Assembly: GCA_025526915.1 (NCBI GenBank)
Contig: JAHLKH010000144.1
Coordinates: 1-64,000 of the forward strand
Direction of reading: 5' to 3'
Origin: Entophlyctis helioformis
Taxonomy: Eukaryota; Chytridiomycota; Chytridiomycetes; Chytridiales; Chytriomycetaceae
DNA: 64,000 nucleotides
In this document: positions 1 to 61,082 of the stretch, piece after piece
Layout: the number at the start of each line of letters is the position of its first letter
How positions within the stretch are numbered: the first letter of the stretch is position 1
Position numbers and translations under genes: made by a program
Notes under the pieces: model-generated
Databases searched by the model: none
What the model was told of the DNA's origin: nothing
What the model saw: only the letters and a program-made list of their open reading frames with translations

Positions 1-3000
1 CAATATGAGCACGATCAACGCGTGGCTTGTCACGGCCATGCAGCTGATGATGCACCGGTCATGGACGCGAGGCATGGTGCACGCCATGCGATCAAGAAAG
101 GCATACCACAGCCCAAATGCCGCCAGCCGTCGCGCAGGAGCCGGCTCTACCAGACAGGCTTGACGGCAGCCTCTGCGCGGAAGCTGCGAATGATATCTTC
201 AGCAACCTCGCCAAGAGTGTGTGTGCCATGCTGGCGCAGCACTACATTGGAAGCCAGTCCGACCTGGTGTTTGCAGCGTGCCTCAAGCTTGTGCGCGGTT
301 CAACTCCCAAGCAAGCGACGGCGTGGACTACGTACCTGATCAAGAAAGCCAGGGACGCTGAGACCGCCAAGCGTGCTGCTGCCAACGCCGCCAAGCGCGC
401 TGCTGCCAAAGCTGCCAAGGACGCCGCAGACGCCAAGGATCCCAAGCGTGTAGCTGCCAACGCCGCCAGGGACGCCAAGCGCGCAGCTGCCAAAGCCGTC
501 AGGGACGCCAAGCGCGCAGCTGCCAAAGCTGCCAAGGACGCCGAGCGTGCAGCTGCCAAAGCCGCCAGGGACGCCGAGCGTGCAGCTGCCAAAGCCGCCA
601 GGACGCCGAGCGTGCAGCTGCCAAAGCCGTCAGGGATGCAGCTGCCAAAGCCACCAGGGACGCCAGGCTTGCTGCTGCCATAGCCACCAAGAAGCCACGC
701 GTTGGGAAGGCTGCCACTGAGGACGCCGTGCCAACCCACAAGCGGACCGCGTCCAGCACTTCAATCACCGACAAGGGCGGCGTAGCCAAGAAGGTACGCG
801 TCGGCAAGGACCCCGCGCCAACCCACAAGCGGACCGCGTCCAGCACTTCAATCACCGACAAGGGCGGCGTAGCCAAGAAGGTACGCGTCGGCAAGGACCC
901 CGCGCCAACCCACAAGCGGACCGCGTCCAGCACTTCAATCACCGACAAGGTACGCGTCGGCAAGGACACCACTGCCAAGGACGCCACGGCTGCCAACGGT
1001 GCTGCTGCCAAAGCCGCCAAGAAGCCACGCGTTGCTAAGGCCGCCGCTGCCAAGGACGCCAAGAAGCCATGTGTCGGGAAGGCTGCCACCACCGAGAGCG
1101 CGGCGCCGAGCCCATCGCCAGCCACGGAGGGCAAGGACGCACCAAAGAAGCCACGCAGCAAGAAGGCCGCAGCATCCAGCTCTTCCTCAGCCACAGAGGG
1201 CAAGGCCGTTGTCGTGCTACCTCCAGAGCTAGACGAGCTCGCTGCGATTGTGCTCAGTGAGTCGCTGTCGCATCCCGGCAAGTTCCATGCGCTGCGCAAT
1301 CTCGCTGGGAGACAGAGCATCAAGCTTTGCCCGCAGCCGGCAAGCTGCGACCCTTTCGTTCTCATCACAGAGAGGACACTCTTTTGGTCTGTGATGGGGA
1401 CAAAGAAGGAGCGCGACAGCAAGGGGCAGGATCCTGCTTTGCAAGCACTGCGAAAGGAGCTACTTGCTGCGATCAGTAAGTTGCACTGCCTGTTTGTGCC
1501 ATCTTTTTATGATTTGATACTAACAATCCACCTTTCTCAAAGAGCCTGGCTCGAAAAAGTTGACACTCAAGTCAACCGACAGCGAGATCAAGAAGGCATT
1601 CAGCTCGAGTCGCGAGAATTGCGTCATGGACGTCCTGCTTCCCGGCCTCCGCCCCAAGAAAGGCCGGTATCAAACGCCGGCAGAAGCCGAAGCGGAAATG
1701 GACGCAGCCAACACCAAGGCCAAGAAAGCGGCTAGAGCCAAGGCGACGCAAGAGGCCAAGAAGCAGCGTCTGCGTGGCAAGGAGCGCAAGGACTTCATCC
1801 AGGCTGCGGTTGATGCTCTACCCCCAGCGAGACCAACCAAACGGACACGGATGAGTAGCGTCATCTCGAACGGATACAGCGTCGGCCAGTTGGTTCGCGA
1901 TTATCGCACAGACCGTCCAGAGTCGCCTTGCAGTATGTGCCGTGCTTGGATGCTTTGGTGCACACATCAATTCTAACCGCCGCCTTGCTTCGCAGGTCCC
2001 GACACGGCGTCTTCATGCGAGCTTCCCAGTCTTGCCAATGAGGCTGATTGTGTGCCTGATTACCTCAACGGCGAATGTGAGTTGCTGTGCCAATCCAGAC
2101 GCGTACTTGCTGTCCACACCAACTGACATGCCATCCACAGCTGCCAAGCCAAAAGTGCCAAACCTTGTATGTCACTTGCATGCTAACCTCGCGCATTGGT
2201 GCACATGCATTGCACATCCCTCACTCATGCCATGGCATGACAGGCCAAGCGCAACTTCAATGCATCCCAGCGACTACCTGATGTTGCTGATGCCAACAAG
2301 CTGCTCGCCGACAAGGGCTATGAGACTGTTCGCGTTGTCAGTCTAGACTGGGGCAAGCGGTACCTGTTTGGCGCGTCCAGCATGCTGCTCAACGTCAATA
2401 CCGGCACATACACGCTCGAGGCCAACTATGTGCTCTCCTCTGGCATTTTCAAGCTGAGCGCGAACTTCTGCGATGGTATGTATGCAATGACTCTGTGCAC
2501 TCTTGACCAGATCAACTCACAGCGCCTGTCTCTTGTGCCAGGTTCAATGGCCGATATGCCAAGGCAGCCGACATCCATGAGGCGATTGCCTTCAAGATGG
2601 CAAAGCATGCCGATCCAGGCGTCTCAGCAGGCGAGAGAGCCTTTTGGGATCTTCGCTGCTTGGCGTACTGCTCGACATTCCTGAATGCAAAGGTATGTTT
2701 TCTCTGCTTCTGGATGCCCATTGACATGATCGCCATGCTGCTTGATCGCCTGCTGATTGCATGGAGTGGCATGGCATGGCATTCCACAGAAGGTCAAGGC
2801 CGAGCGTTTTTCCATGCGCAGCAACAGCACGTCTGATCGCGGACATGCTCTTGAAGGCATCATGAAGCTGGCAGGATCGACCACTGGCAAGCGCGCATCT
2901 CCTGCGTCTCAAGGCCTGCCCTTCGACCAAACAAAGCGGCAGAGGACAACATCCCGTTGTCTGGGCATTGGGCATCGACTTTACTGGCGAGGGTGGCCGG

Positions 3001-3533
3001 CATGCTGTGTTTGAGAGGTTTCTCATCAGGCATCTGCGGTCGTCTGGATATGCCTATGTGCGTCTGGATATGCCACGCTGTCCATCCATCCATCTGTGCA
3101 CCAACTGACCACACGATCATGCACACACACACACACACAGATCTACCGCTGCAACGAGAACCTGACCAGCCAGATGTGCCCGCAGTGCAAGCAGCGCATC
3201 CCAGACAAGAACCGCACCAACCTGCGACGCTACGAGTGCACAGCATGCAAGGCCGTCTACCACCGAGACGTGCTTGGAGCCACCAACATCGGAATGGTCG
3301 CACTGGGGCATTTGCTCGATGGAGAGCGGCCGCTCTACTTGACACACACAAAGGCCAGTCAGCCTGTCGTCCAGCAGCTTCCAGTACCTGAGCTGCCTGT
3401 CAACCAGCGGCCTCCAAGACCACCCGATCCGCCCATCGTCCTGCCGCCTCCACCACGGACACGGTCTGTCCGCGGGTCACGAGCCAGCAAGGCACATGCA
3501 ACTCCACGTGCTGTGACTTCCAGCACAATATGA
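1..3533 (+). CDS. Fanzor (eukaryotic TnpB-like RNA-guided nuclease), C-terminal part, copy 1
   Basis: Partial gene, 5' end outside the window. TnpB-type hallmarks are visible: RuvC-I in VVSLDWGKRYLFGAS (Asp codon at 2346), a RuvC-II-like segment VVWALGIDFTGEGG, and a last exon (3141-3533) with TSQMCPQC, YECTACK and the RuvC-III signature YHRDVLGATNIG, the OrfB zinc-ribbon pattern. Upstream lie Lys/Ala-rich 11-residue repeats and three 29-residue repeats. Introns read at 1475-1542 (with TACTAAC), 1933-1995, 2076-2140, 2167-2243, 2480-2541, 2693-2789 and 3058-3140. The family cuts DNA guided by an omega-RNA. Compared with copy 2, one base is missing near 88, near 116 and after 2955, and the exon 2790-3057 needs a further frame change, so the copy is either slightly decayed or contains assembly indels. 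Fanzor1-like rather than a prokaryotic TnpB, because of the introns. Confidence 0.75.
362..690 (+). repeat. Coding 33-bp repeats (11-residue Lys/Ala/Arg units)
   Basis: Imperfect 33-bp units encode an 11-residue pattern such as RDAERAAAKAA, ten or so times in a row. The unit resembles the 11-mers of LEA group 3 proteins and H1-like basic tails, and predicts a charged helix inside the Fanzor protein. Copy 2 has the same array at about 52728-53035 on the other strand. Confidence 0.8.
731..957 (+). repeat. Coding 87-bp minisatellite (three units)
   Basis: Units begin at 731, 818 and 905, exactly 87 bp apart, and each encodes 29 residues starting PTHKRTASSTSITDKGG. The third unit lacks the GGVAKK part. 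Copy 2 has only two units (about 52510-52685), so the array changes in length between element copies. Confidence 0.85.
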
Positions 3534-3773
3534 ATCGGGGCACCTCCCGATCGACCAATAGGGTCACTTTACGAAGGTAAGCCCTTGTTGGATGTGCCTC
3601 GCCCGCCTGTCGTCGCATGCTCGTTGCTGACTCGAACCTTCAATCGTGTGTTATGCTGCATCCATTCGACGCCTCTCGCGTCCAATTTAATTCAATGATT
3701 CTTGGTAATTGTTTGGATGTCGGGCATTTTGCCGGCAACTGCCGGCATTCCCTCGCCCTATTGCCCACCCCTC
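3534..3773 (+). ncRNA. Candidate omega-RNA and right end of Fanzor element, copy 1
   Basis: Noncoding tail directly after the Fanzor stop codon. It is almost identical in both copies although it encodes nothing. Visible hairpins: ATCGGG/CCCGAT (3534-3539 with 3546-3551), GACC/GGTC (3553-3556 with 3562-3565), and GCCGGCA/TGCCGGC (3731-3737 with 3740-3746) close to the element end. In TnpB and Fanzor systems the guide RNA is encoded at the 3' end of the nuclease gene and runs into the right end. Position and conservation fit, but transcription is not shown. Alternatively these are only transposase-recognised end hairpins. Confidence 0.45.
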
Positions 3774-47094: not shown

Positions 47095-50000
47095 TCAGGC
47101 ATCCGCCTCCATGAGCCTGTCGACCAAGTCGCCGTCATCTTCAGCAAGCGCAACCTGCTCGCTGTCGCCATCCACAGGCGTGTCCGCGCCGCTCGTGGTT
47201 GCCGTTCCAGCCGCACTGGTTCCCTTTCTACCACGTCCCTTGCCCCCACGTCCCTTGGTGCTGTCCTTGGGGACTGAATGACCGACTGGAACTCGATGAT
47301 CGCCTCGCCCTTGAGACGGTGTAGCAGCGACGACCGCTCCTTCTTGCTGAGCAGCAGCGATCCACTCGTCTTGGCACGGAAGAACGGCAGCACAATGGGC
47401 ACAGACACGCTGTTGTTGGCATGGGCAGATGGATGGAGGTCAGCCGTGGCGAGTGAGAACGCGCCGTGTTGGGCAAAGACACCAAACGAGCAAGCAGTCC
47501 AAGGCCACTTACGATCCAGTGTAGTCAGGCTCAAGCAAAGGCTCAAACCGCAGCAGACAGCTGCCCATGGCTGGTGGGCGATCATACATCCATCCATCCA
47601 TCCATCCATCCAAGGCGGCATGTCAGCGAGCGGTCTTGTCTGGCATTGCTGGCAATGAGCAGAGTATCCACAAGAGCATACCGAGCTGAGAAAAGCGCTC
47701 GCGAGCGACAGCAGAGAACTCGGAGAAATGCGGGTACTCGTGCTTGATAAACACGCAGAGATCTTCAAGGCCAAGCGTGATCTGGCGAGCAGGCGACAGG
47801 AACGGGGCAATCGTCTGCACACCCTCGCTCGATACGCGGTATGGGCAGCCCGCAGTCGCGGCGGATCTGTCGAGTCCAATGGAGTCCCAGAAGGGTCAAT
47901 AGGCATGCAAGCAAGCAAGCAATGCAATGCTGTCCAGTGCCAAGGCAAGTCACAAAGTGGCCATACCCAGCATCACCGCCATTGCGCTTGAACACCTTGA
48001 CACCCGTGTTCACAACCTGGGATAACCACAAGTGACTGCCGTCAGTGGATTGAAACATCGACATCCACTGCATGCATGCGGCCGCACCTTGAGTCGGTTG
48101 GCATTGGATGCAAGCAAGATCTCCTTGATGGGCGGTGACACGAGATAAATGCTGCGGAAGTCGTCCTGGTCGTTCTCTGTGCGCACAACAAACTGGTCGC
48201 GCGGGAACTTGTCCGAGATTCCGTAAAAGGACGTGACTTCTGCAACCACGGGGTTGGTCGAGTCGACAAAGATGAACGGCGACTCGCGGCTGCCTGACCA
48301 GCCACGCTTGGCGGGGGCAGCCGTGCCGTCGTTTGTCTTGACGTGCTTTGTTTCTTTGCCGCTGCTGCAGTTTGGCCATCAGGTGCTTGTCAGTTCCAGT
48401 TGCTGATCAAGTCATGATGGCAAGAAATGGGGTGGCCTTACCTGATGTTGTCTTCGCTGGGACGCTTGGCGGGTGCCTTGTCAGTCGCGGCACCGTCTGC
48501 CTTTGCTTGGGCCTCTGCATCCGCTTCAGCCTCAGCCTTTGCCTTGGCAGCCAGCTTTTCGGCTTCAGTTGGCTGGTACTCGCCACCAAAGACAGAGAAG
48601 CGGTCAAGCGCGCCGTATGGACCTGTCTTTTCGAGCACGGCGACAAAGAAGCCACCGCCGTTCTGAGGAAGCGGGTAGATGCGCATGCTGCCACAGAGGG
48701 TATGGATGAGTGTCGGTATCCAGCGTCCGTACAGTTGATGATTGCGGGAATAGATGAATGCAATCTCACCAGTGCTCAAGGCCAAGAGTTGCCGCGTTGG
48801 AAGGCGGGAAGAACGACTCTTGGATGGCTGGGTTGCTGGGGTCGTACGCCTCGAGCGGCTTTCCAGACTTGTCGTGCGGCTTCCATGTCGAAAGACCCTT
48901 GTGGCGCACGAGGTCGGGCAGAATGTCCGAGGCGTCGACCAGACGGAATGCACCTGAAAGAATGCGCCGAGAGACGAGATTAGCATGGGCAGCACTGCCG
49001 GCAGACATGACAGTGGCAGGCATGTACCGTTGGTCTCGTTGATGATGCTTGCGAGGACCGCCTCGTTCTCGATCGGGTTGAATGTGCACGTGCTGTACAC
49101 GAGACGACCGCCGACCTTGAGCAGCTCGCAACCGCGCAAGAGCACAGACTTTTGGATTCTGTCGCATGTCACAGGTGGATTGGCGGTTAGAGCTGATCGG
49201 CGCGACAATAAAAGCGCAACAATGTGGCATGTACCTGTGCAAGCCGTTGCCGTTACCAATCGAGTAGGAGCGCCAGATGGTCTTGTTTTTGCGCAACGTG
49301 CCGTCGCCACTGCACGGCACATCACACAGAATACGGTCAAACTGAAGGACGGTCGAGCCCTTCTCGGACTCCTACAAGACGCCGACCAAATCAATGTGAG
49401 CCGGACTACGTGCATAGACGGCTGTTGCCCATACTAGCGTACGTACACGATCACTCAGGAAGATGCGAGGGAACTCCTGGCCCTCATGGTTTGTGACAAG
49501 CAGGCAAGGGCTTTGGAGACGCTTGGCTTGGTGAACAAGCATCATTGCGCGGTCGTAGTCAGAGTCGTTTGCCACGACGAGACCATCCGGCATGCTCTCG
49601 CCAGCCGTTTCGTTCTCGTTGGCGTGGACGGCCTCGAGCAGCTGGGCAGTCTTGCTTCCTGGTGCAGCACACCTGTCGCAATGCAGAGTGATTAGCAATC
49701 CAAGTCCTGTGGCGCAACGCAAAAGCAGGCAAAGGGACGTACATGTCGAGAACCTGTCACGCCGGATACAGTTGCAGATGCAGGCAAGTGTGTGAGACGC
49801 GAATCTCGGTTGCTCAATGCACCAAAGCAAACACCGACCTTGTGCCCAGGCTTGACATCAAGGAAGAACACGGGCACCATGCTCACGACTTCCTGGCGAC
49901 TGATATTGCCCTGCGCACGAGCATTATGCAGGTGCTGCTGTCAGAAAGTGCAGATCGCACGCAGGCCAGATGCGCAATTGACAGACAGACACGTACAACT

Positions 50001-50787
50001 TCAGTCTCGGAGACCAAGAAGCGATGAAAGTCGTTGACCTGGGGCGACTTGCGCAGAGCCGTGCGGCCACAGTCAAAGACCCATGCGAGATCGTTTGGGT
50101 ACCTGTCCGGCGCAGCGTTGCAATGCATGTGAGTCTTGCACATTGGACAGCAGCAAAGCAAGGAGGCGAGATGCAATGTGTGCACACCAAGGGACAGGCT
50201 CGGGTGGCTGGACTTCCTCGCCCTCGATGGCAAAGCCCTTGAGCTTGGGAAAGTACTCCTTCTTCATGTACTCGCGCAGATCCTGTGCATGGCTGCGTGG
50301 GAGTAGTGTAGGTGTGTAAGAGATGAGTGGTCGGCAACAGCACAGAGCGAAGGCTGCAGACTGACTTGCGGCTGCCAGTGAAGCGGAACGAGACGGGCAG
50401 CGGCTTGCGCAGCGATGCCATGAAATCATCCCACTGGTCGCTTGGCACAATGTTCTGGGCCTGGAGCAGCAGAGGCAGCAACGATGCCAGAGCATGCCTG
50501 GTGTCAGCATCCGGCCTGTCCACGTCGTCGCGCACAGACACTCTGGCGCTCAGACACTCTGGCGCTCAGGCGTGCAGCCAAAAAGAAAAACCTTGTAGTA
50601 GTCCTCGAACGACTTGTTCTCGAGCACGACCTGGTACGACTCGTACGGCACCTGGCCGTTGCTGCCTGCGTTGGGGGCATCGCGGGCATCCACTCCTGCC
50701 ACCGCCTGTCTGTTGCTGCCGGTAGCGCCTCTGCCGCCGCCATTGTTGCCACCTCGACGAGCACGACGTCCGCCACGTTTGCCCATG
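47095..50787 (-). CDS. NSUN2: tRNA (cytosine-5) methyltransferase NSUN2/Trm4
   Basis: Starts MGKRGGRRARRGG (50787), then FEDYYK, the IVPSDQWDDFMASLRKPLPV segment, HRFLVSETEV, NISRQEVVSMVPVFFLDVKP and the SAM-binding part VLDMCAAPGSKTAQLLEAVH. The motif IV cysteine is in CDVPCSGDGTLRKN and the catalytic motif VI cysteine in VYSTCTFNPIENEAV, followed by GGGFFVAVLEKTG. The C-terminal RNA-binding part includes VVNTGVKVFKRN and ends with an Arg/Gly/Lys stretch and VDRLMEADA. Around fifteen introns. In the last exon the frame slips at CAGTCCCCAAGG near 47270; one more C would give QSPKDSTKGRGGKGRGRKG, so a homopolymer indel is likely. The Fanzor copy 2 right end lies 54 bp upstream of the start codon. 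Confidence 0.93.
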
Positions 50788-50840
50788 GTGATTTGTGATG
50801 GTTGTGGGGGAAAGTCGGCGACTGCCGATCTTTCATTGCT

Positions 50841-51082
50841 GAGGGGTGGGCAATAGGGCGAGGGAATGCCGGCAGTTGCCGGCAAAATGCCCGACATCCA
50901 AACAATTACCAAGAATCATTGAATTAAATTCGACCCAAGAGGCGTCGAATGGATGCCGCATAACACACGATTGAAGGTTCGAGTCAGCAACGAGCATGCG
51001 ACGACAGGCGGGCGATGTACATGCATGAGGGGCTTACCTTCCTAAGAAGTGACCCTATTGGTCGATCGGGAGGTGCCCCGAT
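50841..51082 (-). ncRNA. Candidate omega-RNA and right end, copy 2
   Basis: Same noncoding tail as 3534-3773, with the two hairpins next to the stop codon and the GCCGGCA/TGCCGGC hairpin near the outer edge. Only scattered substitutions and a small indel (CACTTCTTAGG versus CACTTTACG) distinguish the copies. Confidence 0.45.
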
Positions 51083-52509
51083 TCATATTGTGCTGGAAGT
51101 CACAGCACGTGGAGTTGCATGTGCCTTGCTGGCTCGTGACCCGCGGACAGACCGTGTCCGTGGTGGAGGCGGCAGGACGATGGGCGGATCGGGTGGTCTT
51201 GGAGGCCGCTGGTTGACAGGCAGCTCAGGTACTGGAAGCTGCTGGACGACAGGCTGACTGGCCTTTGTGTGTGTCAAGTAGAGCGGCCGCTCTCCATCGA
51301 GCAAATGCCCCAGTGCGACCATTCCGATGTTGGTGGCTCCAAGCACGTCTCGGTGGTAGACGGCCTTGCATGCTGTGCACTCGTAGCGTCGCAGGTTGGT
51401 GCGGTTCTTGTCTGGGATCCGTTGCTTGCACTGCGGGCACATCTGGCTGGTCAGGTTCTCGTTGCAGCGGTAGATCTGTGTGTGTGTGTGTGTGTGTGCA
51501 TGATCGTGTGTCAGTTGGTGCACAGATGGATGGATGGATGGATGGACAGCGTGGCATCAGACGCACATAGGCATATCCAGACGACCGCAGATGCCTGATG
51601 AGAAACTTCTCAAACACAGCGTGCCGGCCACCTTGGCCTGTAAAGTCAATGCCCAATGCCCAGACAACTGGGATGTTGTCCTCTGCCGGCTTTGTTGGTC
51701 GAAGGGCAGGCCTTGAGACGCAGGAGATGCGCGCTTGCCAGTGGTCGATCTTGCCAGCTTCATGATGCCCTCAAGAGCGTTTCCGCGAATAGACGTGCTG
51801 TTGCTGCGCATGGAAAAACGCTCGGCCTTGACCTTCTGTGGAATGCCATGACGCAATTCTCGCGACTCGAGCTGAATGCCTTCTTGATCTCGCTGTCGGT
51901 TGACTTGAGTTTCAACTTTTTCGAGCCAGGCTCTTTGAGAAAGGTGGATTGTTAGTATCAAATCATAAAAAGATGGCAAAAACAGGCAGTGCAACTTACT
52001 GATCGCAGCAAGTAGCTCCTTTCGCAGTGCTTGCAAAGCAGGATCCTGCCCCTTGCTGTCACGCTCCTTCTTTGTCCCCATCACAGACCAAAAGAGTGTC
52101 CTCTCTGTGATGAGAACGAAAGGGTCGCAGCTTGCCGGCTGCGGGCAAAGCTTGATGCTCTGTCTCCCAGCGAGATTGCGCAGCGCATGGAACTTGCCGG
52201 GATGCGACAGCGACTCACTGAGCACAATCGCAGCGAGCTCGTCTAGCTCTGGAGGTAGCACGACAACGGCCTTGCCCTCTGTGGCTGAGGAAGAGCTGGA
52301 TGCTGCGGCCTTCTTGCTGCGTGGCTTCTTTGGTGCGTCCTTGCCCTCCGTGGCTGGCGATGGGCTCGGCGCCGCGCTCTCGGTGGTGGCAGCCTTCCCG
52401 ACACATGGCTTCTTGGCATCCTTGGCAGCGGCGGCCTTAGCAACGCGTGGCTTCTTGGCGGCTTTGGCAGCAGCACCGTTGGCAGCCGTGGCGTCCTTGG
52501 CAGTGGTGT

Positions 52510-52685
52510 CCTTGCCGACGCGTACCTTCTTGGCTACGCCGCCCTTGTCGGTGATTGAAGTGCTGGACGCGGTCCGCTTGTGGGTTGGCACGGCGTCCTT
52601 GCCGACGCGTACCTTCTTGGCTACGCCGCCCTTGTCGGTGATTGAAGTGCTGGACGCGGTCCGCTTGTGGGTTGGCACGGCGTCC
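52510..52685 (-). repeat. 87-bp minisatellite, two units (copy 2)
   Basis: Two 29-codon units (PTHKRTASSTSITDKGGVAK), against three in copy 1. Confidence 0.85.
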
Positions 52686-52727
52686 TCAGTGGCAGCCTTC
52701 CCAACGCGTGGCTTCTTGGTGGCTATG

Positions 52728-53035
52728 GCAGCAGCAAGCCTGGCGTCCCTGGTGGCTTTGGCAGCTGCATCCCTGACGGCTTTGGCAGCTGCACGCTCGG
52801 CGTCCCTGGCGGCTTTGGCAGCTGCACGCTCGGCGTCCCTGGCGGCTTTGGCAGCTGCACGCTCGGCGTCCTTGGCAGCTTTGGCAGCTGCGCGCTTGGC
52901 GTCCCTGACGGCTTTGGCAGCTGCGCGCTTGGCGTCCCTGGCGGCGTTGGCAGCTACACGCTTGGGATCCTTGGCGTCTGCGGCGTCCTTGGCAGCTTTG
53001 GCAGCAGCGCGCTTGGCGGCGTTCGGCAGCAGCAC
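52728..53035 (-). repeat. 33-bp coding repeats (copy 2)
   Basis: Array of 11-residue Lys/Ala/Arg units equivalent to 362-690, with one more unit variant and an extra G near 53026 that shifts the frame. Confidence 0.8.
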
Positions 53036-54481
53036 GCTTGGCGGTCTCAGCGTCCCTGGCTTTCTTGATCAGGTACGTAGTCCACGCCGTCGCTTGCTTG
53101 GGAGTTGAACCGCGCACAAGCTTGAGGCACGCTGCAAACACCAGGTCGGACTGGCTTCCAATGTAGTGCTGCGCCAGCATGGCACACACACTCTTGGCGA
53201 GGTTGCTGAAGATATCATTCGCAGCTTCCGCGCAGAGGCTGCCGTCAAGCCTGTCTGGTAGAGCCGGCTCCTGCGCGACGGCTGGCGGCATGTTGGGCTG
53301 TGGTATGCCTTTCTTGATCGCATTGGCGTGCACCATGCCTCGCGTCCATGACCGGTGCATCATCAGCTGCATGGCCGTGACGAGCCACGCGTTGATCGTG
53401 CTCATATTGAGACCCGGCTGGGCCATCTGCTTGCCACTGAAAATGTACGACAGGTGGCGCAGCATACAGGCCATGGACGTCTCGCCGCCAGAAGCGCTGC
53501 TGATGATTTCCGTGAGCAGTTGGTTCGCTGTTGGCACCGCCGGTGCTGCTCCTGGCTGCTCAGACTCGTCGGCGTCCCGGTGTCCTCAGACTCGTCGGTG
53601 TCCTCAGACTCGTCGGCGTCCTCGATGTCCTCAATGTCCTCATACTCGTCGGCGTCCTCGCTGTCCTTTGACTTCTTGACCCTCTCGTGCAGACATATCT
53701 CGAGTCTCGTGCCCGTGGCGAGTGGCACCGGATCGCCAAAGCGAGGATCGCTGCTCTCTGGGTTGTACAAACTTGAGCCATACATGATCCGCGCGTCGAT
53801 GCCCTTTCTGAGCGTAAATCGGCCGGACAGGAAATCCTCCCTTGACACCCACCGGGGCGGTTGGTGCCGTCTGAGTTGCTGGGATCGTCGAGGGCTCGGA
53901 TATCATCGTTGCTCAAGAAGCAGAACCCGGTCTGCTTTTCTTGGAACCACTGGTAAACGTGGTATTTTGGCGGGAGGGGCGCGTCTTGAACGATCTCGAG
54001 GAGCTCTTCAAGGACGGCACCAATGACGATAAGGCCGGCCTGCCGAGTACCGACGGTGAACGAGTACACACGGGTAAACTTGTCCTCGACGATCAGATCC
54101 CGCGTCCATGTCTCTGGCGTCTTCCTGCCATGAAGGCCATGGAATCTGACGCGCAATGGATCACTCGAGGTAAGGTCCTGCAACCACGCCAAGCTGCCAG
54201 TCAGTACATGCATCGCCATGCATGCAGGCAGAATGGCGATCCTAAATCGTACCTCGTATAGCACTCTCATGCCACAACGATCAGCCGCGTCCACAGCGGG
54301 TCGATCGGTCGCGTCCACAGCGGGTAGATTGGTTGCGCCTCCTTTTGATTGCCGCACCTTGTCGCCGATGGCCGCAAGGAGTGTTATGAATCGCGCGGTA
54401 ACGATCTGGCTCATCTTTCTGAGCTTCAGCTGTAGTGCCCGTCGTGAGCGAATGACGACTCTACCAAAACACGCATGTCAG

Positions 54482-57349
54482 CAAGTGCTCTCACGGCACA
54501 TCGCACAGCATACATCACTTACACTCGCGTTGTGCCAGAAGGAAACCTGCGGTGCTGCAGGCCTGACCTTTGCCTGTTGGTCTTCGCGGCCTTCTTTGCC
54601 TCAGTATCTACAGCTTCCGTTTCGCTCTTCTTTTTGAGCTTGGCGAGCATGGCTGGCGTGAGAGGGCGTGGTGCCTGCAGAGGTTGGATGGCAACATGAG
54701 CAATGCATTCCGAGTGCACAAAATACATATGCAAGCATCAATGGTACATCAGAACTAACCGTCGTCTGGGTGTCTGCAGCTCGATTGAGAGAAAAGACAA
54801 CCCGCTGTGCTTGTCCAGGCCAACAGTTGGTAGATGACCATTTACGCTTGGGCGGCGTTGGCGGTTGAAGCCCCTGTCAATTGGAAAAATGAGCGACTGC
54901 ACCAAGTCATCACATGCACACACGGCCAGTGTAGACAGAGACGCACCGATGCCTGCTCGATGATCGACTTTAGCAGAGCAATAGCCTCGGTTCGCTGCTC
55001 GACAAGTGTCACTGGTTGGCCCTTCGTTTGAGCTTTCAGGTCTTTCAGCTGTTTTATGGCCCTGTCGCGGATTTCGGCAAAGGTCTTTGAGGAAACGCGG
55101 CGGGTGTTGATCTTGCCTTGATACTTGGGTTTCTGCTTGTTTTTCTGCGTTTCTGGTACTAAAGTAGCACATTCGACAAAGGCAGCACTGTGAGTGGATG
55201 GTGTCAAGTCATTCTGATGCAAGCAGCACGTACTTGGAGTTGATGAATGCTCAAAGGGTACGCATGGAGGATACACAATCTTGTTCAGCTGGTTCTGCAT
55301 CACCAAAGCGACAGTCTGTTCGATGGACAGTGGATTGGGTTAGACACTTCAAGGCAAGAAATGCACATGAGTCCAAGTCATGCAGAAACTTACGGTTGCA
55401 TGCTGAATGGCCCAAGCTGGTTTGTTGAGCAACGTGCGCGCTTCCCGTACAGGAGGCTTCTTGCAGGCAAGCGCTACAAGTCGCGCGCTTGCCGCCCGGC
55501 TGATCCTCGCCAGAATGTCGCGGCCCGCGACTCCGCCATGATTGCCAGAGAGACGGCCCGCCGCGTGCTTGATAATGCAGTCAAATGCGATCGGGCAGCC
55601 GTTGACCTGCTCAAACGCGGTGTCCATTTGCTCGCTGCTGACAATGGTCTCGAGGTGCCGGTTGATGTCGCTCTGCGTCAGATGCACGACGTTGGAGTCT
55701 GGGTGTCGTTCTTGCCAGTTGGAGTGGGTCAGGAGGCAGCCGTCATGTCGCTGGCAACTGCATCACGATCCAAAAGTTGCATCAAGGACAGGAGAACAGA
55801 GTCAGCAATGCGAGAACCTGCAGAGATCGCATGCATGAGTACCTTGGTTGAGCTGCGGCGGTCTTGACGGCAGCCTTGCCGCTGTCATTCCATGTGGTGA
55901 TAGATGGTCAGTACAGTGCTCTGCATGCAAATGCATCAACAGTGCCGCGTGCTTGACCGATCGCGCAATGACTTGCCTCTGCCCTTGCGCATGCGAGATT
56001 GACCGCTGCTTCTGCTTGGGGCTTTGAACGCCGCAGCGGAAGCTCCTGACTCGTCGAGGTAAACAAAACGTCAAAGGCGTTGAGAAATGCCTTGGCGAGG
56101 TCCTCGCCTCCGATTGGCAACAAGTCCTTGACGTACGCGTCCCTGAGGCCCGTCAGGAAGTCGTCGGAAAACTTGCGGTTGCGGAGGCGATCACGGAAGC
56201 CGGCCAGATCCGTGTTTTCCTTGCTTATCACGCCATCAACGTACTCGTTAATGAACTTGGCACCAAAACCAATGCCTGCAAGATGATGTGAGTGGCAACG
56301 CATGTTAGTCGGCATCGCAGCATGGATGACAATACAGAGCATGAAGCCAGGAATCGCACGCACCACGCCCGTAGCAATCGAAAAAGTCATTCTTGGCGAA
56401 TGCAGCTAGAGTTCGGCAAGAGCCATCGAACTCGTACACTCCCATGGCTGACGCAGTGGACGGGATACCTGCATGGTTATAAGACCGGATCTCGCTGTCA
56501 CGTCCCTTGCGCATGCTCATCGTGATGACAGGGCAGCGGCCGTCGCAGTGCATCACCAAGTCCGAGTCGTTGGCGATAACCACCATTGGTGTGTCGCTGT
56601 TGCAAGATGAAGACTGTTAGCCGTCAATCAAAACATACAGTTGCGATGGCGGTCAATACCTTGGATTTCTTGCATACTCGGCTGCGCACCGGGCGATGCA
56701 AACGTCCGCCTCGTGGTCACACCAATGAGCCGTATGCTGTGGCTTGGTCTCGAGGATCTCCGCGATCGCCTCGTAAATACGCTGCTTGTCGTCGTGCGTG
56801 AGCGTGAACGAACGTCGCAGCGCCTGTCTGTCTTTCCTGGATCATTGATGGTTAGTTAGAATCGCCTCGATGTGGCATGAAGAAGTGGACGCACCTGGTC
56901 AAGTGTTTCGATCTCTTGCACTTGCCGCGTTTGCGAATGCACCGCAGAACAGTGGCCACCCCATTCAGGACCTTAACGGCACGGTGCCTGTGCTCGATCT
57001 TAAGCCCAGAGTCGCCGTGCTGACCGTCAACATGAAAGACGTATGTGTGCTTGTCGCCGAACTTGCCAATGAACGACTCGAGTACTGGCTTGAGGACTGA
57101 CTTTCGTTCGGCCATGGATGGTTGTAGATCAGGCCTTCCTTGCCCGATAAAGTACGCAAAGAAGACGCTCATCACATCGACGTGGACGATGCCGCAAGTG
57201 CTGGGTGTGGCCGTGTTGGTGTCGCTCGGATCTCGTGGCGGTTGTGCATTGTCCAACACAAATGTCAACGCCGAGGACCAAGGCACGTCCTTGTGTACGA
57301 CGACGGCCTTTGCCTTCCTGGAATGTGCAGACTGGCCGATGATGCCCAT
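54482..57349 (-). CDS. FEN1/XPG-like nuclease, apparently the N-terminal part of the Fanzor gene
   Basis: Starts MGIIGQSAHSRK like FEN1's MGI. The metal-ligand pattern of the family is present in order: VHVDVMSVFFAYF (Asp), YVFHVDGQ (Asp), DHEADVCIARCAAEYA (acidic pair), VVIANDSDLVMHCDG (Asp pair) and KNDFFDCYGRGIGFGAKFI (Asp and GIG helix-hairpin). Exon 1 56895-57349 and exon 2 from 56836; at least eight exons splice in phase, including TVALVMQNQLNKIVYPP and GLQPPTPPKRKWSSTN. A splice at CGA GT|A continues the same frame into the Fanzor region. FEN-type enzymes cut DNA flaps. Two separate genes remain possible. No recognisable PCNA-binding tail. Confidence 0.65.
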
Positions 57350-57351
57350 GT

Positions 57352-57420
57352 TGTGCGTGTGTGCGTGTGCGGTTGCTGATCGTGCGTGCGTGCGTGTATG
57401 CGCAGTTGCTGATCGTGCGT

Positions 57421-57463
<43 letters not shown>

Positions 57464-57470
57464 GTTGCTG
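57352..57470. repeat. GT/GTGC-rich microsatellite
   Basis: GTGCGTGC and (GT)n runs with two copies of GCGGTTGCTGATCGTGCGTG, just upstream of the FEN-like start codon. Confidence 0.85.
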
Positions 57471-58248
57471 ATCGTGCGTGCGCGGCTGCTGAAAGCTCAA
57501 TCAGACAGTTGCAGAGTGTCGCGGAAAGCTCGAAATCGCTTCTCCATTCCTTGAGGCGAGCAGCCCGATGGAACAATGGACAAAGGGCTCCACGCCTCGT
57601 CCTCCATGAGCATGGCCGTGGATGGCAAGCTGGGCTCGGCACAAGGCATTTGTTCCCTTTGGCCGAGCACAATGATTGGACGCCACTGGTCGCCAAATTT
57701 AATATCATTTTCATTGTTCTTGGCCAGTCACTCTGAGCAGCGAACAGATGGCATTGATGCGGATCGTCTCTGCTTTGAGGCTGGCTTACAGCCCATCTTG
57801 AAGGGTATGGCTTGATGGCCACTGGGCAGCATATCAAGGGCCATCCTGCTTGTGGCAGTCTCGACTGGTGACAGCCGGCATTCTTCTGCAGAGACAACCG
57901 CGTCACAGCAGACCTTGACGTCTTGGTTGATGCTGGAGTGCGATGGCGCGCAAATGGCGCACGCGTCGGTAGAAGCGCCACCCCTCTTGAAACAGGCAGT
58001 GATCTAAGGGTTGGTGGCACCCAGAGCGCCACGCCCATTGTCAAGTTGAAGTGGCTTCTGAGATCATCAACCCAGATCGCCTCGATTCCACGATGCTCAT
58101 AGGTTGAATCTGCAACCAAAGGCTTGCTTGATGCTCAACGGCGGTTGGATGCTGGCATGGCAGCCACAGCACTGGTTGCCCATCCAGCCTTGTTCATAGG
58201 GTCCATGCCGCAGTTGGAATCACCAAGTGCACATGGAATTGCTAGATC

Positions 58249-58608
58249 TCATCCGTGTGAATTCCTCCAACCTGATGCCCAGCCCTCCTTTGTGCTCTGA
58301 GCAGTACTGAGATGCGCCATATCGCTATCTGGCTCTTTGGAACAGAGATTGCCAACCAACGCCATGACAATCCTCCAATCTTTGACCGAGTAGTCATCCC
58401 AGATCTCACAAATGTGTCGCACTTTCTTGTGATGATGGTGCAAGGCGAGTTTCTCCTTGGGCTCAGTGTCTTCATTGCCGACTTTGGATGCTGTTGACTT
58501 CAGTCGCCAGCAGGTCTGGGACGACTTGTTCTTTGCAGCCTGCAGTCGATCAGCCCTTTGTTGTTGACCGAGACTGTGCATGCTGCTCGTCATTGCATTC
58601 GCGGGCAT
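58249..58608 (-). CDS. Hypothetical reading frame
   Basis: About 119 codons with balanced composition (KVRHICEIWDDYSVKDWRIV, MALVGNLCSKEPDSDM), a Lys/Glu-rich start and no low-complexity run. No family recognised. It is oriented with the Fanzor gene and might be an exon of that element or an orphan gene. Confidence 0.3.
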   Translation of the reverse strand: MPANAMTSSMHSLGQQQRADRLQAAKNKSSQTCWRLKSTASKVGNEDTEPKEKLALHHHHKKVRHICEIWDDYSVKDWRIVMALVGNLCSKEPDSDMAHLSTAQSTKEGWASGWRNSHG

Positions 58609-58777
58609 GCTGACAAGTCAGGTGGGTATGGCTGTTGGCTGTGGATGACGGGGTGCGACGGCATCGTGCCTTGAATGCAAGACTTGTTGATTATCTGCGC
58701 TGCTGGCTGTTGCAAAGACACTCGTCGCTGCGACCTTGCTGTCTACACAAAGGCAGCCAGGACAGAGGTTGACATGA

Positions 58778-59242
58778 GTGAGCAGAATTGCTGCAGGCAT
58801 TCTGTGTGTATCGCCTCGACAGTTCTCAAAGTCAGACCAATCCAAGCGCGAGGCCTTACAGCAGCTCACGATACGCGGCAGCTCACATACGCCGAGTGAT
58901 CCATCCATGTCCTCGTTGGTGAGCTCGTCTGCCTCTTGTGCGATGGCTGTCAACAGTTGCGACTCTGTTGACACTGTGTGCCTTGACAATCTCGACGACG
59001 ACAAGGACCTTGCGGACGAGCATGGACAGCCAGCCGTTGCTGTAGCTGCCACGCCAACAGCCAGCCGCCAAAGAGCACCAAGCAAGCGGAAGAGAGCAGC
59101 AGCAGATGCCAGTGCGTCTGTGTCGGCTGTGACGTCGCCGTTCGGACATTGCAGCAGGCAGCCCCAGCAGCACGCACAAGTGCGCCGCCTGGACGCAGAG
59201 GGCAACAGCTGCAACAGGCAGTCGCACGAGAGTTCTTCGTGA
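58778..59242 (+). CDS. Hypothetical acidic/NLS-like reading frame
   Basis: The frame contains MSSLVSSSASCAMAVNSCDS, an acidic stretch DNLDDDKDLADEHG and a basic RAPSKRKRAAADAS that resembles a nuclear localisation signal. No domain recognised; the region could equally be noncoding. Confidence 0.25.
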   Translation: MSRIAAGILCVSPRQFSKSDQSKREALQQLTIRGSSHTPSDPSMSSLVSSSASCAMAVNSCDSVDTVCLDNLDDDKDLADEHGQPAVAVAATPTASRQRAPSKRKRAAADASASVSAVTSPFGHCSRQPQQHAQVRRLDAEGNSCNRQSHESSS

Positions 59243-59500
59243 CGCTACCAACACGCAACCAACTGCTGCCCCTTGGACAGGCTCAGCAGCCCACAAGCCA
59301 GCGCCAAAGCGACCACGACTTGAGAAGGCATCGGCTGCAGACCGCTCAGAGTGACTGGGAATTCGGACAAGAATATGAAATTGGATTCAAAAAGATTGGA
59401 AATTGGATGCCAAATTGAACAAAATTCGAGGCAAACCAGCCGGCCAATCAGGTGCCGGCGCAAGGTTTTCTATGGGAACGAAATCAATTACCCCCTCTCT

Positions 59501-60945
59501 TCATTGCTCAACCACTGCCGTCGTGGCTCCGGCCGCAGATGCAGATGCTGGAGTTGCGTCAGAGAACCCACTGCTTGCAGAACTGCTGACCGACTTGGCG
59601 CTGCTGCTGCGCGCACGGTCTGACACGACTGTGACTACGATCGTCTGCCCACACAGATGGACACACCCAAGAGCGAAGCTGATCTGGCGCAGAGCAGACT
59701 GGTTTATCAGCTTGGCCTGTGGACTCGCAGTCGAAGGCAGAAGCGAGACGACGAATGCTGTGGTGGCGAGAATGTACACGACACAAAGTGCAAGCAGCAG
59801 AATGTCAATGTCGACCAGGATGTAGCGGCTGTCTGCACTGTTTTGGAGCATCGACGCGAGCATGTCGGGCAGCATGCTGGTGCGACGTGGGTCTGCATTC
59901 CGAACGATACTCTTGGCAGTGCTGATGGCATGCTGCTGGCTTTCCGGCATGACAGACACGCGGTTGGTGCTGTAGCGGCTGATGCCAAGGCCGTGCCGCT
60001 TGGGCATCACAGGCAATGGCCTAGGTGCCGCTCCAGGTGCTGCCGCTGGTGCTTCCAGTGCTGCTCCAGACGGTGGCATGGGCAGTGTCGATGGCGTGTT
60101 GGCGGGGGTGGCAGAATCCTGGCTCAGGATCTCTAATGAGTCGGACTTTTTGGTCCCCAAGACGGCTGCAGGCTGGGTATCTCTGTGAACGCTCTTTGCC
60201 TTTGCTGTTCTGAACGACGGTCTGCGCAGCCGCATGATCTTCCTCATGTGTTTGCGTACATGGTACAGAATGTAGAGGTTGCCAATGATGCACACTTGGC
60301 CAATGATGGCTGAGAAAACGCTAGGCCCATACGCGATAACCTGTACAGATTATGATGCGGACACACACCGAATCGCGGTCAATGGTAGGTTTGGATGTGA
60401 CTGCAGCCAGTGCAACGGTCACCGACCGTATCCAGCCCTGATGTTCCTTGACCGTTCTCGCGCGGCGAAAAGACGATGCCTTCCATGTAGCTCGCGCCAA
60501 ACGTGGCAAGGTTGAGGACGACTATGGCAACGAAGAAGCTTCTGCGCCGCCTTGGTACCAGAAACGAGTTGAGGGCCAGACCGACCGAGAACATGATCCC
60601 AATCTCAACCTCGACTAGCGCCAGTGCGAGGGCGGTCAGCCCAAACGTGTAGTTTCTGGCTATCAGGAACACGTATGTTGTGCTTGTGTCCGTGTACACA
60701 AAGGCGGCTTCTGAAACCTGCAGCAGAGCGGACACAAAGTTTGAAATGAAGAGACCAGCGAGCATGGCTGTCCATGTTGAGCGGCGAGCGCGAATGGCAA
60801 AGTAGGCTGAGCCTGCGATGGCCACGCCAAACGAGATGATGGTTGCGACGAGGCCCAGTATGGCGATCGGGCTGGAGCTGACGAGATGTGGCGGAATTCG
60901 AAGCATTGCGATGTCGGCCAAGATTAATTGGTATTGACACGGCAT
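59501..60945 (-). CDS. Seven-transmembrane protein, unknown receptor-like
   Basis: Two exons joined at GLDT|VIAYGPSV (intron about 60331-60421). Seven hydrophobic helices: IAILGLVATIISFGVAIAGS, AMLAGLFISNFVSALLQV, FGLTALALALVEVEIGIMFS, FVAIVVLNLATFGASYM, VFSAIIGQVCIIGNLYILYH, ILLLALCVVYILATTAFVVS and ISFALGCVHLCGQTIVVTVV. A long, Ser/Pro/Ala-rich third cytoplasmic loop of about 150 residues lies between helices 5 and 6. The topology fits a G-protein-coupled receptor, but no known class motif (DRY, NPxxY) is seen. The start at 60945 (MPCQYQLILA) is tentative; MLRIPPHLV about 40 bp further is an alternative. Tandem with the KIAA0930 gene. Confidence 0.65.
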
Positions 60946-61082
60946 TATCCATTGCCAATCGATGCATGGCTGACAGTCAATGGCAGCATTCCATTGTTCT
61001 GTTCGGCAAGCTGACGTTGATAAAGACGCTGGTAGACGTCGGGACAGACCGAAAGGTGTATTTGGAATATGTATTGTGCATT

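Follow-up and report, generated by a model that had tools for sequence, protein, structure and literature searches.

A FEN-type nuclease domain probably joined to a TnpB/Fanzor-type nuclease in a decayed mobile element of Entophlyctis helioformis

The Fanzor1 protein SpuFz1 of Spizellomyces punctatus belongs to the Spu-1 elements, the locus of which spans about 2.1 kb and holds a single open reading frame (ORF), with a conserved RNA-coding region between the stop codon and the element end, as given in the available part of PMC10432273, where a cut-and-copy role for TnpB is also discussed. The motif of TnpB and Fanzor proteins was written by Bao and Jurka in 2013 as D-X(125,275)-[TS][TS]-X-X-C4 zinc finger-X(5,50)-RD (PMC3627910, in excerpt), and Yoon et al. 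ascribe a near-exclusive DPG and an alternative glutamate to Fanzors, and D-phi-G and the canonical glutamate to TnpBs (PMC10711439, likewise in excerpt). The described Fanzors and TnpBs lack a joined second nuclease, as far as these excerpts go, and the reason why elements retain them is debated. No fusion of a FEN or XPG domain to a Fanzor is described in the accessible portions of the open-licence PMC literature, nor was a FEN1-like protein tied to transposable elements and transposase found in that literature. One speculative sentence mentions "Fanzor flap endonuclease homologs (Fendons)", as genes in two viral contigs and with no fusion in the text available (PMC11071296). The present work examines a mobile element in a stretch of 64,000 nucleotides (the window; contig JAHLKH010000144.1, here C144) from the 29.57-Mb genome of the chytrid Entophlyctis helioformis. 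The best overall explanation of this locus, with a probability of about 0.6, is a decayed copy of an element whose relatives encode a protein composed of a FEN domain, a middle region and a RuvC nuclease.

The initial annotation of the window had proposed that a FEN/XPG nuclease is fused to a Fanzor nuclease on the minus strand. The landmarks on which it relied are present in the sequence, namely the MGI start at 57349, the stop ending at 51083, the acidic motifs and GIG, and the joins CGA GT/A (E10/E11, 54523 to 54460) and TAC GAG/GAC (E11/E12, 54253 to 54177). The fusion itself is borne out by relatives of this copy and not by the copy as it stands, which is defective. The coding part of the window copy is arranged as follows.

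55977..57349, minus strand: E1-E4, FEN/XPG-like nuclease domain, from the exon map and fold match, with frame changes in E4 (E1 57349-56895; E2 56836-56660; E3 56596-56364; E4 56275-55977)
54253..55881, minus strand: E5-E11, linking region, splice sites and phase kept (E5 55881-55843; E6 55757-55394; E7 55315-55234; E8 55158-54947; E9 54873-54760; E10 54674-54523; E11 54460-54253)
52000..54177, minus strand: E12, a conserved middle block, acidic and KRAAAKAA-type repeats, and a conserved block preceding the RuvC part, with frame changes
51846..51932, minus strand: start of E13, truncated by a deletion
51846..51850, no strand: deletion junction with a 5-bp overlap, about 1.15 kb lost together with RuvC-I and E14-E17
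51567..51835, minus strand: E18, region ahead of the zinc ribbon, one frame change in the window copy
51083..51475, minus strand: E19, zinc ribbon, candidate catalytic E (NENLTSQMC), RuvC-III (YHRD) and stop

Nineteen exons were placed, with junctions defined by motifs, and the copy on contig C15 holds all 18 junction pairs; the first automatic gene models had over-split the exons and were dropped. When spliced, the first 16 exons of C15 give 1,754 stop-free codons that run from MGIIG to the RuvC-I motif VVSLDWG and slightly past it (VSLDWG at residue 1709), and the first slip of this copy lies just after that frame. The 15 introns used are GT-AG except for one GC-AG, which follows E4. When 17 copies, among them the window copy, are set against C15, introns 1-11 have a GT or GC donor wherever aligned and, with a single exception (16/17), an AG acceptor wherever aligned. 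Each junction from E1 to E11 keeps its phase and an open frame in 12-18 of 17-18 copies, counting C15 and the window copy, and this conservation of splice sites and phase is far beyond chance. E1-E11 are open in copies of three families (C15, C232 and C49), and E2-E12 in C18. The step from the middle block to the Fanzor side is made by E12 alone, a single open exon of 2,197 nt in C15 that is uninterrupted in C95 and C18 too, and in C252 up to the contig end, which falls inside it. Better-preserved relatives thus probably encode one fusion protein, with a FEN-superfamily nuclease at the N-terminus (about residues 1-390), a long middle, and a TnpB/Fanzor-type RuvC nuclease with zinc ribbon at the C-terminus, the whole being estimated at roughly 2,000 residues.

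The linkage of the two nuclease parts recurs throughout the genome. Positions 51083-54477 of the window gave at least 43 matches (the best 40 of 466 candidates being scored), and positions 54478-57500 at least 58, on many separate contigs (best 40 of 120 scored). The longer matches comprise one family at 86-99% identity and others at about 69-74%, and were numbered in the analysis as family 1 (C15, C98 and others), 2 (C232, C95, C18 and others), 3 (C49), 4 (C112) and 5 (C125). The zinc ribbon (PF07282) occurs at no fewer than 150 places (best 150 of 205 candidates scored), in our judgement an unusually large expansion for 29.6 Mb, and the FEN exon has at least 205 matches, at 41-99% identity among those listed (best 150 of 207 scored). 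Of the 150 zinc-ribbon places, 72 have a FEN exon 3-14 kb upstream on their own strand, the distance being 4.8-6.5 kb for 58 of these; the controls gave 0 of 150 downstream and 4 on the opposite strand. This count took in extra FEN places from exon matches of public proteins, before the addition of which the three figures were 69, 0 and 3. Zinc-ribbon places with a FEN exon 9-13 kb upstream form a second distance class near 12 kb, which suggests nested insertions or longer families. Exons of two public E. helioformis proteins match the genome at up to 99%, and the public models P0001-P0005 (BC831DRAFT) are hypothetical and correspond to short pieces of these proteins.

At the C-terminal end, the zinc ribbon of E19 matches PF07282 with E=2.5e-10 (40.8 bits against a cut-off of 26.3). 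The copy on C268 agrees with the long motif of Bao and Jurka, with 191 residues between D35 and T227, then TSQMC, the C4 finger and the RD at D261, and the same residues appear in the alignment rows of families 2 and 5. The glutamate at the Fanzor place, six residues ahead of the zinc finger (E-NLTSQM-C), is present in 3/3 alignment rows. A search of the C-terminal profile against the PDB returned four weak matches only, the best two being LaTranC over the zinc ribbon (E 0.16 and 0.25).

The N-terminal domain carries seven acidic positions (HVD, FHVDG, HEAD, NDSD and KND, in family 1 letters) in all eight sequences compared, which are four alignment rows of four element families together with P0002-P0005. 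We take these positions to be those of the FEN1 metal site. Foldseek with the predicted model of P0002 gave 28 PDB matches at E<=0.001, all 28 described as FEN1, EXO1, PLEXO1 or T5 FEN. In the viral library 27 matches reached the same threshold; the 19 that are named are all nucleases, of XPG, flap, XRN or 5'-3' exonuclease kinds except for one "putative nuclease". A FEN-type fold is therefore likely for this domain, on the strength of modelled structure and motif order, sequence-only comparisons being weak or negative. A protein search with the FEN alignment returned four relatives, all from E. helioformis (8,000 candidates scored), and two peptide patterns scanned once against viral contigs picked up no relative of it.

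The window copy is dead. Compared with C15 it bears seven exon length changes, none a multiple of three, of which six are of 1-19 bp and one is of 1,150 bp; the initial annotation had counted two one-base slips only and had overlooked the large deletion, which removes the RuvC-I aspartate. The 5-bp overlap at 51846-51850 consists of bases shared by the two flanking matches. At the other 14 listed places that have both flanks, 14 of 14 retain 1,141-1,410 bp at the deletion site, among them a second copy within the window (about 1630-2775, plus strand). The deleted aspartate also leaves the window copy outside the long TnpB/Fanzor motif. Since RuvC-I is gone, the window copy alone cannot show the fusion, which is seen in other copies.

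Several observations weigh against a fused and functional protein. Among 18 copies, C15 alone is open across all 13 exons tested. The E11-E12 junction is in phase and open in 4 of 14 copies, C252 among the four, and E12-E13 in 2 of 13; E12 holds long repeats and slips. No transcript was seen for the fusion gene, and the public gene models of relatives (P0001-P0005) measure 217-349 aa only. When region 1-560 of the joined frame was searched against proteins, none of the 7,998 scored candidates reached E<=0.01. No paired FEN exon accompanies 78 of the 150 zinc-ribbon places, 20 of which stand on the plus strand with under 6.5 kb of contig ahead of them; the others are unexplained (minus-strand places lie outside that tally). 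The initial annotation had named family members lacking the FEN domain as telling against the fusion, and the 78 unpaired places may include such members. RuvC-I reads DWG, not the Fanzor DPG, in 13 of 14 loci from families 1, 2, 3 and 5, the 14th (L021) having a frame slip at the motif. Because DWG is the D-phi-G form ascribed to TnpB, the nuclease is labelled here as TnpB/Fanzor-type and not as a Fanzor proper; the name Fanzor used by the initial annotation agrees with the long motif, the PF07282 match and the position of the glutamate, and disagrees with RuvC-I.

The pattern of divergence is a further difficulty. Between families 1, 2 and 3 (L014, L024, L026 and L032, over E1-E12) exons differ at 31-32% of bases and introns at 17-23%, and fourfold sites are 31-40% different between families. 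Within family 2, introns and exons diverge alike (3.0% and 3.6%); the unexpected contrast between families may reflect accelerated exons or constrained introns. The ratio of nonsynonymous to synonymous divergence (dN/dS) was computed over eight copy pairs, with not every block present in each pair. It is 0.22-0.41 in the FEN exons, 0.39-0.71 in E6-E8, 0.29-0.45 in the first block of E12, 0.32-0.41 in E12b+E13 and 0.32-0.68 in E16-E19. It is thus below 1 in all blocks and pairs computed (0.22-0.71), which is not a clean proof of constraint because exons diverge more than introns between families.

Synonymous divergence between families is 0.17-0.26 in the 3' exons and 0.71-1.59 in the FEN exons, so the two parts have partly separate histories. 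This is one ground for an alternative in which a single element makes two proteins, FEN-plus-middle and a separate TnpB/Fanzor, through separate transcripts or alternative splicing, the shared frame being coincidental. The brevity of the public gene models would suit such an arrangement, as would the placing of RuvC-I some 1,300 residues past the FEN domain with low-complexity repeats between. The alternative is nevertheless rather unlikely, for it has to account for 1,754 codons of C15 without a stop, for a phase of the linking exons that is kept in copies of three families, and for an E12 that links the middle block with the conserved block preceding the RuvC part and is uninterrupted in three copies. 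The low 3'-exon divergence can also be read together with the left end of the element, in which about 1.36 kb (58102-59486, compared with L025, L026, L027 and L030) is some 95% identical between families 1 and 2, against about 72% for their coding parts; the element ends, the 3' tail among them, have thus undergone homogenisation or exchange.

The single fusion protein, which we prefer, could still carry an N-terminal domain of a different function, and the assignment of that domain to the FEN type also has evidence against it. In one further copy (L039) the second acidic residue is replaced by Y, and GIG follows the last motif in family 1 only. The Pfam model XPG_I_2 was the first family for P0002-P0005 (E 0.0047-0.038), with a best score of 16.9 bits against a cut-off of 24.2; it was matched by three of the four element-family rows (best E 0.13), and one such row matched Alpha_kinase at E 0.0099. 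Profile searches with the N-terminal domain found no such nuclease in the PDB, PHROGs or NCBIfam, and a genome search with XPG_I and XPG_I_2 matched other loci and none of these elements. An hhalign comparison with 19 archaeal FEN1 sequences (from 22 of 53 loci, after removal of 3 with stops) scored 16.0, where reversed controls scored 14.0 and 15.3, although its best stretch appears, on our reading, to be in register. The AlphaFold model of P0002 is poor, with a predicted local distance difference test (pLDDT) of 57.5 and a predicted template modelling score (pTM) of 0.48, and the TM-scores of the 50 PDB rows listed are 0.14-0.42.

Some XPG-like scaffold proteins are non-cutting members of the family, and the FEN-like domain might accordingly only bind DNA or RNA within one protein. 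The most often matched Pfam model, XPG_I_2 ("XPG domain containing"; 7/8 sequences, always below cut-off), would fit such a role. We give this alternative a low probability in view of the seven acidic positions kept in 8/8 sequences, the substitution in L039 notwithstanding. It is highly improbable that all copies are relics of a fusion that never worked, with open frames due to chance or assembly. The dead window copy would suit that view, as would the 17 of 18 copies that are incomplete or have a break in one or more tested exons; against it stand a frame, splice sites and acidic residues that are common to families differing at 31-32% of exon bases, on many separate contigs.

The mobile element that contains this gene can be delimited, since similarity between copies breaks off at, or a few bases from, window positions 59499 and 50841 and the flanks beyond are dissimilar.

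50841..59499, minus strand: whole mobile element, 8,659 bp; inter-copy similarity stops at its ends, the flanks differ, and 9-bp repeats lie outside
59500..59508, no strand: upstream copy of the 9-bp target-site duplication AGCAATGAA, at the element edge
50832..50840, no strand: downstream copy of the 9-bp target-site duplication AGCAATGAA, at the element edge
57350..59499, minus strand: left end, no recognised gene; outer 1.36 kb about 95% identical in family 2
50841..51082, minus strand: 3' tail, non-coding, which contains two hairpins and is a candidate scaffold for a guide RNA
1..3773, plus strand: second element copy, cut by the contig start, which retains RuvC-I (DWG)

Copies that have the segment missing from the window copy are about 1.15 kb longer. 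The sequence AGCAATGAA occurs on the window minus strand only twice, once at each element edge, with 9/9 bases identical. By eye, 7/9 target-site bases agree at the flanks of the C15 element and no duplication was seen at those of C98, which leaves the window copy as the main evidence for a duplication of 9 bp. The C98 and C182 copies (L033 and L036) share an identical left flank, and therefore either the locus was duplicated or the insertion lies inside another repeat. The alignments of the element ends show short imperfect inverted repeats only.

No transposase was found in the element, a further point against the favoured explanation, and no Pfam family exceeded the cut-off in the nine ORFs inside, or reaching into, the left end. 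The Mutator-like element (MULE) transposase PF10551 has no match in the genome. Helitron families gave no genome match either, a result which shows little, as the control searches were also silent. The KDZ transposase has four genome matches over the cut-off (best E 1.1e-15), three of which carry stops, and all are located outside these elements. An open frame that starts with ATG (window about 50786, minus strand; MGKRGGRRARRGG) begins some 50 bases downstream of the element's end, and a tested piece of 121 aa had no Pfam match. The element may therefore be sited in a host gene's promoter or leader.

Past the stop codon, a stretch of about 240 bases has a mean column identity of 86% over eight copies of families 1 and 2. 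This 3' tail is at least 80% identical at 40/40 scored places (40 of 212 candidates scored), some of which belong to the P0002 family, in which the FEN domain shows just 44% identity. Of 200 shuffled sequences, 198 fold less well than the C15 tail (z -2.54). No covariation was found in the tail, because the paired bases hardly vary, and Rfam at the gathering threshold gave nothing at window positions 48000-61000. The tail may be a guide-RNA scaffold, by analogy with the guide RNA of Fanzor elements, whose position it fits (PMC10432273, in the part available).

A tentative mechanism can be outlined from these parts, one that we hold, as a whole, to be possible and no better than doubtful. The gene would be read as one protein and the 3' tail would supply a guide RNA, as in known Fanzor elements. 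Under the direction of this RNA the RuvC part would cut the matching site that lacks the element, and the FEN part would then trim the 5' strand at the break or flap. Such trimming could push repair towards copying from the element-bearing chromosome, and the protein would serve as a self-contained aid to cut-and-copy. A single polypeptide may on this proposal unite RNA-guided cutting with a nuclease of its own for 5'-strand resection or flap removal, breaking the site and preparing it for copying of the element; the same speculative scheme includes the spread of the two-nuclease architecture through one small fungal genome, to dozens of places and probably more than a hundred. If true, a naturally occurring 5' nuclease fusion would reveal the fate of the DNA once it has been cut, allow cut-and-copy to be tested directly with a single protein, and provide an example from nature of a programmable cutter coupled to an enzyme that processes ends.

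Among known systems, the element resembles SpuFz1 in being a chytrid mobile element with a zinc ribbon and RuvC nuclease, no transposase between its ends and a conserved stretch past the stop; it differs in its exons, spread over about 7.5 kb, its roughly 2,000 residues, its RuvC-I DWG and its FEN-type domain, none of the kind being mentioned for SpuFz1 in the available text. With TnpB of IS200/IS605 and IS607 it shares the D-phi-G form of RuvC-I (here DWG) and the zinc ribbon, whereas the Fanzor-place glutamate, the introns, the eukaryotic element and the N-terminal nuclease-like domain set it apart (PMC10711439, in excerpt). The order of acidic motifs, the predicted fold and, in family 1, the GIG after the last motif are as in FEN1, EXO1, PLEXO1 and the T5 flap endonuclease, yet the sequence is too distant from these for the profile searches used and sits in a mobile-element protein. 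The MuDR-like Fanzor1 elements of Mucoromycotina (ROr-4, PBl-3 and MCi-4) have 9-bp target duplications, as does the window copy, and likewise no encoded transposase, according to the available portion of PMC3627910; unlike them, the present element has a FEN-like domain, only short imperfect terminal repeats and no MULE transposase in its genome. Near-identical left ends with a differing Fanzor coding part are also described there for DFa-1, -2 and -3 (Fanzor1, Dictyostelium fasciculatum), which are Sola2-type with 4-bp duplications and, in that portion, no mention of a FEN domain. The wording nearest in print is that of the "Fendons", which brings both words together, with no fusion in the accessible part of the source (PMC11071296). 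The proposed RNA-guided cut followed by 5' processing would parallel the cut-and-copy role discussed for TnpB (PMC10432273, available part).

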